The notes under the pieces are model-generated. The model ran no database searches. It was given only the letters and a program-made list of their open reading frames with translations, and was not told the DNA's origin. The position numbers were made by a program, and so were the translations under genes. Below, in pieces: positions 51-12,892 of a DNA stretch of 54,970 bases (positions within the stretch are counted from its first letter, which is position 1; every line of letters starts with the position of its first letter). This DNA comes from Candidatus Anaeroferrophillacea bacterium (lineage in GTDB: Bacteria > Desulfobacterota > Anaeroferrophillalia > Anaeroferrophillales > Anaeroferrophillaceae), in contig JAFGAM010000090.1 of the NCBI GenBank assembly GCA_016933675.1, positions 1-54,970 of the forward strand, in the 5' to 3' direction.

Positions 51-401
51 TGGTGGAGGTGGCGGGAATCGAACCCGCGTCCGAAAACCTTTGTCGTGGA
101 GCGTCTACATGTTTAGCCGGATTTTATTTTAGCCGGCCGCAGCCTCCTCCGGTCGGGATGGTGCGGCGGCGAGCTCCCTGAGATTTCGCCAAAACGGCCG
201 GCAGCGAACCGTGCGGCTAGCCTGCTGAGATGACACCCGACACCGGACTAACAGGCGTCCTCCGGGCGGATGGGCCGCCTAAGCGGCCAGTGCGTAGTCG
301 TAGTCGGCGTTTATTTTGCCGTTCCACCGGTTTAAGGAGGGAGATGGGACCTCCACATGCAGCTCCAGACTCAGCATTCCCGTCGAACCCGAATCACCCC
401 C
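51..401 (-). ncRNA. ssrA: tmRNA (transfer-messenger RNA)
   Basis: Rescues stalled ribosomes by adding a degradation tag. The 5' end GGGGGTG (401 to 395) pairs perfectly (one G-U) with the CACCTCC that precedes the 3' ACCA ending at 51. The 3' part carries the TTCGATTCC T-arm of the tRNA-like domain, and the 5' part the conserved GGTTCGACGGGAATGCTGAGTCTGG-type region. The tag frame is read in the minus strand around 279-310 and ends ...DYDYALAA followed by TAG. By analogy with the resume context of other tmRNAs (UAnnC then GCN) the tag is most likely ADYDYALAA; the preceding AAC codon could make it NADYDYALAA. The partner gene smpB lies directly upstream. Length, 351 nt, is normal. Confidence 0.97.
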
Positions 402-10143: not shown

Positions 10144-11172
10144 CTACGGCATGGACTTTCCCATTGCCGCGGCGAGCGGCCGCAGTCCGGCCATCAACCG
10201 CTCGAACCCCGGTATATCCAGTTGTTGCAGCGAATCGCAGCGGGCCGTTTCGGGCCGGTAATGGACCTCGACCAGGATGCCATCGGCCCCGGCGGCGAGG
10301 GCGGCACGGGAGAGTGCCGGGATCAGCGAGCGCTTGCCGGCGGCATGGGACGGGTCGACGATTACCGGCAGATGGGATTTTTCCTTCAGGACCGGCACCG
10401 CGCTGATATCCAGCGTACTCCGGGTGGCGGTCTCGAAGGTTCTGATGCCCCGTTCACACAGCATGACCTGAGGATTCCCTTCGGCGAGGATGTACTCCGC
10501 CGACATCAGGAACTCCTTGATGGTGGTCGCCATGCCGCGCTTGAGGAGTACCGGTTGACGCAGTTGGCCCACCCGCTTGAGGAGGGAAAAGTTCTGGATG
10601 TTGCGGGCCCCGATCTGCAGAATGTCCGCCGCTTCGGCCACCGCTTCCAGATCCCGCTCCCGCAGTACCTCGGTGATGATCGGCAGCCCGGTGGCTTTTC
10701 GGGCCTCCTGCAGCAGTGCCAGCCCTTCACCTTCCAGCCCCTGGAAATCGTAGGGCGAGGTCCGCGGCTTGAAGGCGCCGCCGCGCAGGATCACCCCTCC
10801 GAGCCGCCTGATGCCGGCGGCGGTTTCGATCATCTGTTCGCGGGACTCTACCGCGCAGGGTCCGGCAATGACGGTGAAATGGCCCTCGCCGATGGTGACA
10901 TCGCCGACGCTGATCAGGGTTTCCCCGGCCGCCGATTCGCGACTTGCCAGCTTATAGGGTTCCATTATCGGGATGATGTTTTCCACCAGCGGATCGTTGG
11001 CCAGTTCGCTGGAGGCGTTGCCGGGCAGCGAGACGCCGTTTTTGCCGATGATGCCGATGATGGTTTTGTATTTCCCGCGGCTGATATGGGGTTGAAAGCC
11101 GAGATCTTCGATACGCCGGGCGATACGGTTGATGTCATGGTCCATGGCTTCGGGGCTGATTACGAGAATCAT
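10144..11172 (-). CDS. aroF: 3-deoxy-7-phosphoheptulonate (DAHP) synthase, AroF/AroA(Q)-type with N-terminal ACT-like domain
   Basis: Catalyses the first step of the shikimate pathway, phosphoenolpyruvate plus erythrose-4-phosphate to DAHP. The 342-residue protein has an N-terminal ferredoxin-like/ACT-type regulatory domain (about 1-70, [26 protein letters not shown]), as in the Thermotoga maritima enzyme. The (beta/alpha)8 barrel follows, with IAGPCAVES (metal Cys and PEP site), [15 protein letters not shown], the KRG motif, CERGIRTFE and [13 protein letters not shown] (metal His). It stands alone on the minus strand. The upstream leader (11404-11576) carries an aromatic leader peptide and a transcription attenuator, so expression is probably controlled by Phe/Tyr/Trp supply. 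Activity is probably also inhibited by tyrosine or phenylalanine through the N-terminal domain, as in the Thermotoga enzyme. Confidence 0.95.
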
Positions 11173-11403
11173 CGCGGATCTCCATTGTCATGAGGTTGGT
11201 GCCGGCCCGACAAGCTGGCTTCGTAACAACCCGGGCATGGTGGCGGCCGGACAGCTTCCCCCTCATTACGGTGTGCCGCTTTCCGGGTCATTCGAAGGAT
11301 GGTGAAGTCGAATTCTCCGAGTGAAGGGATCAACCGTGAGGCTGAAGCCGCTACGGTACCATCGCTAATATGACCGTAGTCGATCTGTGGTTACGATTCC
11401 AGC
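11173..11403. other. Untranslated stretch between attenuator and aroF
   Basis: The 230 bp between the attenuator terminator and the aroF start carry no ORF with coding character and no second terminator that I can see. It is an unusually long spacer for a leader-controlled gene. Confidence 0.5.
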
Positions 11404-11441
11404 AAAATAAAAAGGCCGGGAACGAGTCGTCCACGGCCTTT
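11404..11441 (-). terminator. Attenuator terminator of the aroF leader
   Basis: On the minus strand AAAGGCCG (11441-11434) pairs with CGGCCTTT (11418-11411), and the run continues TTATTTT to 11404. The left arm also contains GTGGACG (11434-11428), which can instead pair with CGTCCAC at 11475-11469, so this terminator has an antiterminator alternative. No gene other than the leader peptide ends here, which argues for a regulatory terminator. Confidence 0.8.
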
Positions 11442-11464
11442 GCATTGCGCTGTGATCAGGCGCC

Positions 11465-11530
11465 GGCAGTGGACGGGCGATTCCCCATCCACTGCCTGAC
11501 GGTTGACGGTCCGTCAGGTACGGATGGGGT
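11465..11530 (-). promoter_or_regulatory. Mutually exclusive leader hairpins (aromatic amino-acid attenuator)
   Basis: Minus strand, in transcript order. Segment 1 is CCCCATCC (11529-11522, inside the leader-peptide codons). Then comes a small hairpin CCTGACGG/CCGTCAGG (11518-11511 with 11502-11495). Segment 2 is GGCAGTGGATGGGG (11496-11483) and segment 3 CGTCCACTGCC (11475-11465). Segment 4 is GTGGACG at 11434-11428 and segment 5 the terminator right arm. Segments 1:2 (8 bp), 2:3 (9 bp) and 3:4 (7 bp) are each perfect and mutually exclusive. A ribosome stalled at the aromatic codons would leave 1:2 formed, freeing 3 to block the terminator; one that reaches the stop codon would disrupt 1:2, allow 2:3 and terminate. 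Confidence 0.75.
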
Positions 11531-11576
11531 CCGCATACATAAAAAAATACCAGTAAAAACGAAGTGCTGCTTTCAT
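11514..11576 (-). CDS. Aromatic leader peptide (20 aa) controlling aroF
   Basis: ATG at 11576, stop TGA at 11516-11514. The peptide is 20 residues with the run RFYWYFFMY at positions 6-14: three Phe, three Tyr and one Trp in eight codons. An AGGA ribosome site lies 8 nt before the ATG (CAGGATTCAGCAG). It is the first translatable unit upstream of the leftward DAHP synthase gene and is followed by the switching hairpins and the terminator. This is the arrangement of pheL or trpL type leaders, but placed before aroF and reading all three aromatic residues. It is too short for usual gene calling. The peptide itself probably has no function beyond ribosome stalling. No convincing promoter was found upstream. 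Confidence 0.8.
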   Translation of the reverse strand: MKAALRFYWYFFMYADPIRT

Positions 11577-11830
11577 CTGCTGAATCCTGCCGACGGCCTC
11601 TGGGCGCCTTGGTCGATTACCAGTTCGCCGCTCCCCTATCACAGGGGCGGAAGAAAGGCAAGCACATTTTTCGCCGCAACGTGGTTGTCGGCTTCGTGAA
11701 AACGGCATATTCTTCTGGGAAGACGCCATTGCCGGAGTGGTTTCGCCGGTGCCTGAAAGAGGTTGCGCTTTCGGAACAAGGATGGTAGATATCCAGGCTA
11801 GATAACTTGTAAGGAGAAGTTAATAATTCC

Positions 11831-12892
11831 ATGGTGTTGGGAAGTTATCATCGGTTTTATCCGGCCGCCGGTACCCCGGCTGCCGGGGCCGGGGAGACGG
11901 TGTTGCTGCGTGACGGTTGCAACCGCCCGGTCTCCTATCTGCGGGTGTCGGTGACCGATCGCTGCAACCTCCGGTGCCGCTACTGTGTTGCCGGGGAACT
12001 CTTTGATTTCATTCCCTGTGCCGGGATACTCCGTTACGAAGAGATCGTCCGGGTGGTGCGGGCACTGGCGCCGGTGGGGATCGACAAGGTGCGGCTCACC
12101 GGTGGCGAGCCCCTGGTGCGCCGCGGTCTGCCGCGGCTCGTGGCCATGCTGCGGCAGATCGACGGCATCCGGGACGTTGGCCTGACCACCAACGGGGTGT
12201 TGTTCGCCGAGTGCGGTCGTGAACTTCGGGATGCCGGGTTGACGAGGGTGAATATCAGCCTCGATACCCTGCGGCGGGATCGGTTCGCCGAACTGACCAG
12301 GCGGGATTTCTTTTCCCGGGCCATGGCCGGCATCGACGCCGCCGTCGAGCTGGGGTTCGATCCGGTGAAGATCAACGTGGTGGCGATGCGCGGGGTGAAC
12401 GACGACGAATTAGTCGATTTCGTCCGCTTCGGTCGTGACCGTGGGGTTGAGGTGCGGTTCATCGAGTACATGCCGGTGGGCCAGGGGACGGGCTGGCAGG
12501 AGGCGTCGTTTATCTCAGCCGCCGAAATCCGCGACCGTCTGGCGGCGGCTTGCGGGCCTTTGGAACCCGCGCCGCCGGAATTTTCCGGCGGGCCGGCCCG
12601 TATCTGGCGGGTGACGGACGGTGGTGTCCGGATCGGTTTCATCAGCGCCCTGTCGGATCATTTCTGCGACCGGTGCAACCGGGTGCGGATCACTGCCGAC
12701 GGGCGATTGCGGCCGTGTCTCCTCGAGGATACCGAGTACGACCTCAGGGGGCTGCTCAGAGCACCGGGCGTCACTGACGCGGCGATCCGGGAGCTGTTTT
12801 TTCAGGGCCTGGCAAGCAAGCCGGCGGGACATGGGATGTCCTGCAATGCGCCGCGCAAATGCCAGCGGCCTATGTCCTCCATCGGCGGTTGA
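11831..12892 (+). CDS. moaA: GTP 3',8-cyclase MoaA (molybdenum cofactor biosynthesis)
   Basis: Radical-SAM enzyme that, with MoaC, converts GTP to cyclic pyranopterin monophosphate, the first step of molybdopterin synthesis. The 353-residue protein has the N-terminal SAM cluster motif CNLRCRYC (Cys 45, 49, 52), the KVRLTGGEPLVRRGL block, NVVAMRGVNDDELVDF, RFIEYMPVG, and the second [4Fe-4S] site CDRCNRVRITADGRLRPCL. It ends in the conserved Gly-Gly (SSIGG) required for catalysis. AAGGAG lies about 15 nt before the ATG at 11831. The first 22 residues are longer than usual, so a later start is conceivable. A Moco riboswitch was looked for in the leader and could not be supported. Confidence 0.96.
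   Translation: MVLGSYHRFYPAAGTPAAGAGETVLLRDGCNRPVSYLRVSVTDRCNLRCRYCVAGELFDFIPCAGILRYEEIVRVVRALAPVGIDKVRLTGGEPLVRRGLPRLVAMLRQIDGIRDVGLTTNGVLFAECGRELRDAGLTRVNISLDTLRRDRFAELTRRDFFSRAMAGIDAAVELGFDPVKINVVAMRGVNDDELVDFVRFGRDRGVEVRFIEYMPVGQGTGWQEASFISAAEIRDRLAAACGPLEPAPPEFSGGPARIWRVTDGGVRIGFISALSDHFCDRCNRVRITADGRLRPCLLEDTEYDLRGLLRAPGVTDAAIRELFFQGLASKPAGHGMSCNAPRKCQRPMSSIGG

Follow-up and report, generated by a model that had tools for sequence, protein, structure and literature searches.

In textbook attenuators, the leader lies before a terminal branch of a pathway and one residue is read. In the E. coli trp leader (Rfam RF00513), segment 1 is masked by a stalled ribosome, whereas the untranslated RNA folds into 1:2 plus the terminator, so that termination is the default; in the E. 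coli his leader, the alternating pairings involve an even number of segments, higher than four, and its untranslated RNA terminates. The DAHP synthases of E. coli are controlled mainly by repressors and feedback inhibition.

The closest described systems lie before aroF itself. The aroR leader upstream of C. glutamicum aroF encodes Phe-Tyr-Phe and acts by ribosome-mediated attenuation (Neshat et al. 2014, as cited in PMC11802643 and PMC4046766), and according to PMC11802643 it reportedly responds to limitation for Phe but not for Tyr. The uORFC-13-1 motif has been predicted before Acholeplasma aroF; its 24 representatives come from Acholeplasma or from environmental DNA, and the same paper cites an old hypothesis for E. 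coli aroF (PMC8632094). According to a survey of 2010, leader-peptide systems were unshown outside Proteobacteria and Actinobacteria until that survey found one in Firmicutes, and almost none of the attenuators predicted in Acidobacteria had a function (PMC2965389). The first-pass annotation of the DNA studied here placed the well-known leaders of this kind before later genes; attenuation at aroF nevertheless has precedents in aroR and the predicted uORFC-13-1. Among openly readable papers, and so apart from subscription-only comparative studies of attenuation such as Vitreschak 2004, our literature search turned up no aromatic leader described upstream of aroF for the groups treated below, and any claim to priority is provisional.

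An aromatic leader and five RNA segments upstream of aroF

The window, i.e. the whole 54,970-nucleotide stretch of DNA analysed, comes from a 2.68 Mb assembly of a small class, of which 22 genomes were examined. Its aroF product carries the ferredoxin-like domain at the N-terminus, as judged by the PF00793 and PF18152 profile matches, and the aromatic 20-codon ORF with its own ribosome site claimed upstream of the gene was confirmed (Table 1). The FYWYFFMY run makes this short ORF rich in codons for the pathway products, with the residue class kept in three orthologs, and when the 450 nt upstream were shuffled with dinucleotides preserved, 0/3000 shuffles contained an ORF as aromatic (7 of 9 residues). 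Transcription might start from a candidate box, CTTG-N15-TRTGATAG, which was read from the upstream sequences of 4/4 orthologous leaders at ~60–65 nt upstream of the leader ATG; a sigma-70 consensus scan gave no promoter on the minus strand and did not match this box either.

The region 11620–11399 folds at −97.1 kcal/mol (z = −5.6). The mutually exclusive pairings and the T-tract terminator that had been proposed after the ORF were likewise found, with helices 1:2, 2:3 and 3:4 followed by 4:5, and the intrinsic terminator (11441–11404) stands between the leader ORF and the structural gene. The 4:5 hairpin was missed by a simple terminator scan, probably owing to the mismatch within its stem. 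The observation made upstream of the DAHP synthase gene was upheld, with the qualification that the T tract and the aroF start are 231 nt apart in the window (11173–11403) versus about 40–60 nt in three relatives. This gap looks like an insertion, and it possibly carries a second promoter.

Table 1. Positions of the leader elements, their helices and aroF in the window
Feature	Position	Strand	Sequence or basis
Candidate promoter box CTTG-N15-TRTGATAG	11636..11662	(-)	putative; common to four orthologous leaders
Shine-Dalgarno AGGA of leader ORF	11585..11588	(-)	sequence, 8 nt before ATG
Leader peptide ORF MKAALRFYWYFFMYADPIRT	11514..11576	(-)	sequence; ATG 11576 to TGA 11514, 20 codons
Aromatic control codons FYWYFF-M-Y	11535..11558	(-)	F/Y/W run kept in relatives
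Segment 1 (ORF end and stop codon)	11511..11529	(-)	pairs with segment 2; conserved
Segment 2	11483..11502	(-)	partner of 1 or of 3
Segment 3	11465..11477	(-)	partner of 2 or of 4
Segment 4 (terminator 5′ arm, antiterminator partner)	11428..11441	(-)	pair counts and ribosome-masked folding
Segment 5 (terminator 3′ arm)	11411..11423	(-)	4:5 stem 97.7% paired, four orthologs
T tract	11404..11413	(-)	sequence
Helix 1:2, part one	11529-11522 x 11490-11483	(-)	CCCCATCC x GGATGGGG
Helix 1:2, part two	11518-11511 x 11502-11495	(-)	CCTGACGG x CCGTCAGG
Helix 2:3	11496-11484 x 11477-11465	(-)	GGCAGTGGATGGG x CCCGTCCACTGCC; 13 pairs including one G-U
Helix 3:4	11475-11465 x 11438-11428	(-)	CGTCCACTGCC x GGCCGTGGACG; 10/11 pairs
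Terminator 4:5	11441-11429 x 11423-11411	(-)	AAAGGCCGtGGAC x GTTCcCGGCCTTT; then TTTTTATTTT to 11404
aroF (type I-beta DAHP synthase; regulatory domain ferredoxin-like)	10144..11172	(-)	TIGR01361, PRK08673 over cut-off; PF00793 and PF18152

A 32-base stretch of the window (11446–11477), comprising part of segment 3 and the spacer, recurs with 97% identity at G000 C141:11075–11106 (L003). These are the only two copies in the assembly, and the second was rejected as another attenuator, being a lone intergenic copy near aspS. Far from the leader, a tmRNA gene lies at window positions 51–401 (−) (RF00023, 182.7 bits).

Folding was also performed with a masking ribosome, taken from usual footprints to extend at its 3′ edge to 12 nt beyond the first A-site base. 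With the ribosome on codons 7–12 (F, Y, W, Y, F, F) of the window leader and segment 5 unmade, 1:2 was full, 3:4 present and 2:3 absent; once it had moved to the final Tyr or the stop codon, 2:3 formed (0.92–0.93), and 1:2 and 3:4 were gone. In 4/4 orthologs, a ribosome at almost any aromatic codon gave 1:2 plus 3:4 and one at the stop codon gave 2:3. In the three relatives the switch fell at the last codon of the aromatic run, and the stall positions agree with the predicted switch point. In the modelled folds of all four orthologs, ribosome position thus decides whether the antiterminator or the pairing exclusive with it forms, which bears out the ribosome-dependent switch expected by the first-pass annotation.

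The fold without a ribosome, before segment 5 is made, was 1:2 plus 3:4, i.e. the antiterminator, and therefore the default should be read-through. Consequently the earlier description as classical attenuation stands in part: attenuation is supported, but the predicted polarity is unlike that of trpL, with the untranslated leader expected not to terminate, the first pairing leading to antitermination and the terminator being the fourth pairing. Once segment 5 was included, the terminator won at equilibrium for every ribosome position, and therefore control would have to be kinetic, like that of other attenuators.

We interpret the element, with a probability of about 0.88, as a ribosome-mediated transcription attenuator that would tie aroF jointly to the charging of tRNA-Phe, tRNA-Tyr and tRNA-Trp. 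With all three aromatics plentiful, a ribosome translating the leader would read past the aromatic run, reach the stop codon and cover segment 1, leaving 2:3 to pair and segment 4 free, and the 4:5 terminator would halt RNA polymerase before aroF. With any one aromatic short, the ribosome would stall upstream of segment 1 and 1:2 would form, whereupon segment 3 would capture the terminator 5′ arm (3:4) and transcription would run into aroF. The same 1:2 plus 3:4 pairing would be adopted in the absence of translation.

Conservation within the family and recurrence beyond it

In three same-family genomes (G001, G002 and G004), whose aroF shares 75–78% identity with that of the window, the element lies directly before the orthologous gene with the helix order unchanged. 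Their leaders, MINHNSTAWRYYFFKDSHPNLKV, MENKHTVFWRYYFYYFSDAHPYLKV and MKNMFKIFWHYYYFGNPHPYPKV, were found on checking the relatives for ORFs with aromatic codons and contain the runs WRYYFF, FWRYYFYYF and FWHYYYF; the flanks vary, whereas the aromatic run is kept by class, with Trp in 4/4 orthologs. When the four leaders were aligned (A1), 91.3% of the pairs in 1:2 plus 3:4 and 98.9% in 2:3 plus 4:5 were kept, versus 26–55% in a sliding control with partners moved 1–3 columns. The helices persist, with two pairs altered on both sides, 14:63 (C-G, U-A) in 1:2 and 75:116 (C-G, U-G, U-A) in 3:4; no double-sided changes occur in 2:3 and 4:5 among the four orthologs, where one-sided changes keep pairing except in a single cell of the alignment, at the terminator's outer end. 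Two double-changed pairs were also reached by 133/500 shuffles, i.e. covariation among four close orthologs is thin, and the helices are supported more by conserved complementarity than by this weak covariation.

A covariance model (R1) run on 22 genomes of the order gave strong matches only in the four members, and those inspected among the other matches (25–30 bits) were ordinary terminators, coding sequence or reverse-strand echoes of the element. An exact pattern search of 395 genomes of the phylum returned the same four genomes only, and R1 found no convincing match in 29 other aroF loci. The exact five-segment form therefore looks restricted to the window's family. A second DAHP synthase gene in family genomes (e.g. 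G000 C28) showed no such leader in the upstream sequence inspected by eye.

Aromatic leader ORFs recur much more widely, as revealed by the search for F/Y/W-rich short ORFs before AroF-type genes that had been suggested with the original observation. When the 400 nt next to each aroF start were scanned for short ORFs in which 5 or more of 9 residues are F/Y/W, 52/110 loci of the same phylum had one, versus 3.4% of shuffles and 3/110 on the opposite strand. Such an ORF together with a terminator was identified in 50/111 phylum loci, window included (4/1110 shuffles), and in 42/78 loci (3/780 shuffles) of a second set built from the 80 named records most similar to the window aroF, which are mostly Acidobacteriota with some Desulfuromonadales; both sets were picked by similarity to the window protein, and the fractions are not unbiased estimates. 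When nine residue sets were compared as controls, F/Y/W alone was strongly enriched (41.8% versus 0.9%), and all three residues occurred in 40/50 leaders of the phylum and 39/42 of the second set (~85% together). Complementarity to the 5′ arm of the terminator reached p ≤ 0.05 versus shuffles in 47/92 loci. Most such stretches lie at the leader ORF end or up to ~15 nt past it, e.g. GTCTGCCC, which encodes VCP or RPSA, or, in Acidobacteriota, GAGTGGG following the stop codon; a few lie further downstream. At the usual site the stretch would be covered by a ribosome that has reached the stop codon, as expected of a putative three-segment version of the same logic.

In acidobacterial aroF loci (L089, L099, L082, L118, L063 and others), a TATAAT-like box often lies ~8–13 nt before the leader start, without a Shine-Dalgarno sequence, which suggests that these leader peptides are translated from leaderless transcripts. 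Near the aroF leader region of one related genome, a cobalamin riboswitch (RF00174) lies at L222 193–359 (−), opposite in strand to the retrieved locus.

Residues sensed, alternative explanations and known systems

The trpE gene in the window's genome has its own leader, MGADMGILSVTANTWWWCMEAR, with a Trp run and a terminator, as do the trpE genes of relatives (MKSATWRKFWWCTVLFSGMDIHC and MTAKEQKNWWWCTMFQPGIVVHC). The runs before trpE in the family, NTWWWC, KFWWC and NWWWC, are Trp-only, that of the window genome being WWW; the sites lie at G000 C144 near 29331 (L257), L255 and L256 (WWWC, FWWC). No leader was found before a second trpE-like gene in the family, nor was a conserved one detected before pheA there, where some contigs end short. 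As the trpE leader is Trp-only and the aroF leader mixed, Trp would be read separately at trpE and jointly with Phe and Tyr at aroF, which favours the first-pass proposal that the mixed leader reads the pooled aromatic supply.

The leader might instead attenuate but in effect sense one residue, e.g. Phe or Tyr, the other aromatic codons being incidental or pace-setting, much as aroR is described as responding to Phe. We regard this as rather unlikely, given Trp in 4/4 orthologs and all three residues in most leaders of both sets; moreover, a Trp-only leader already serves trpE, and therefore chance is an unlikely reason for Trp codons before aroF. Translational control or a trans-acting factor, either an RNA-binding protein or a repressor at palindromes, would dispense with transcription termination, and an operator might lie in the palindrome GGCAGTGG...CCACTGCC, or a regulator's binding site in the conserved CTTG-N15-TRTGATAG box; this is improbable in view of the T-tract terminator in 4/4 orthologs, the antiterminator overlapping its 5′ arm, and the aroF ribosome site, which lies beyond the terminator and outside the switch. 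Hardly credible is an ordinary terminator with a structured spacer, belonging e.g. to an upstream transcript or a small RNA and joined by a chance ORF, which the equilibrium dominance of the terminator and the distance to the window aroF would suit, whereas the shuffles and the aromatic class conserved in relatives refute a chance ORF, the ORF stands in order with mutually exclusive helices, and the upstream neighbour moaA (at 11831 by profile matches) is divergent, so that no neighbouring gene needs terminating here.

The evidence leans towards a widespread undescribed class, in which one Phe/Tyr/Trp leader would pool three signals (starvation for any one sufficing), gate the first committed step and allow read-through without translation, occurring before about half of the AroF-type genes examined in the phylum and Acidobacteriota, as a five-segment relay in the family and a simpler three-segment form elsewhere. 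Pathway entry appears to be gated by one peptide sampling three end products, trpE keeping its Trp-only leader. Recurrence in two large groups suggests an overlooked general regulatory solution, with many natural variants for testing how multi-residue signals combine and how segment number relates to the default state. Judged from the sequences, what is new would be a five-segment leader that senses three residues where the pathway begins and reads through by default.

Compared with known systems, the window leader falls outside the Trp and Phe leader families of Rfam (RF00513 and others): its region had no Rfam match at gathering score and chance-level matches only at a relaxed threshold, and no match was found upstream of aroF in 20 related loci. 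Like E. coli pheL-pheA and trpL-trpE, it has control codons, alternative helices and an intrinsic terminator, but those leaders serve one amino acid each and precede terminal-branch genes; unlike in trpL, the stalled ribosome is modelled to leave segment 1 free, with read-through expected by default. The E. coli his leader shares the more than four alternating segments, whereas its segment number is even and its untranslated RNA terminates. The uORFC-13-1 motif is alike in combining a short ORF and a terminator before aroF, with attenuation proposed, but it is a prediction only and its ORF is said to code for at least one Phe (PMC8632094). Nearest is C. glutamicum aroR, likewise an aromatic leader peptide before a DAHP synthase gene acting by ribosome-mediated transcription attenuation, which, compared by description only, differs in its actinobacterial host and in its Phe-Tyr-Phe codons, with no Trp mentioned in the accounts cited.
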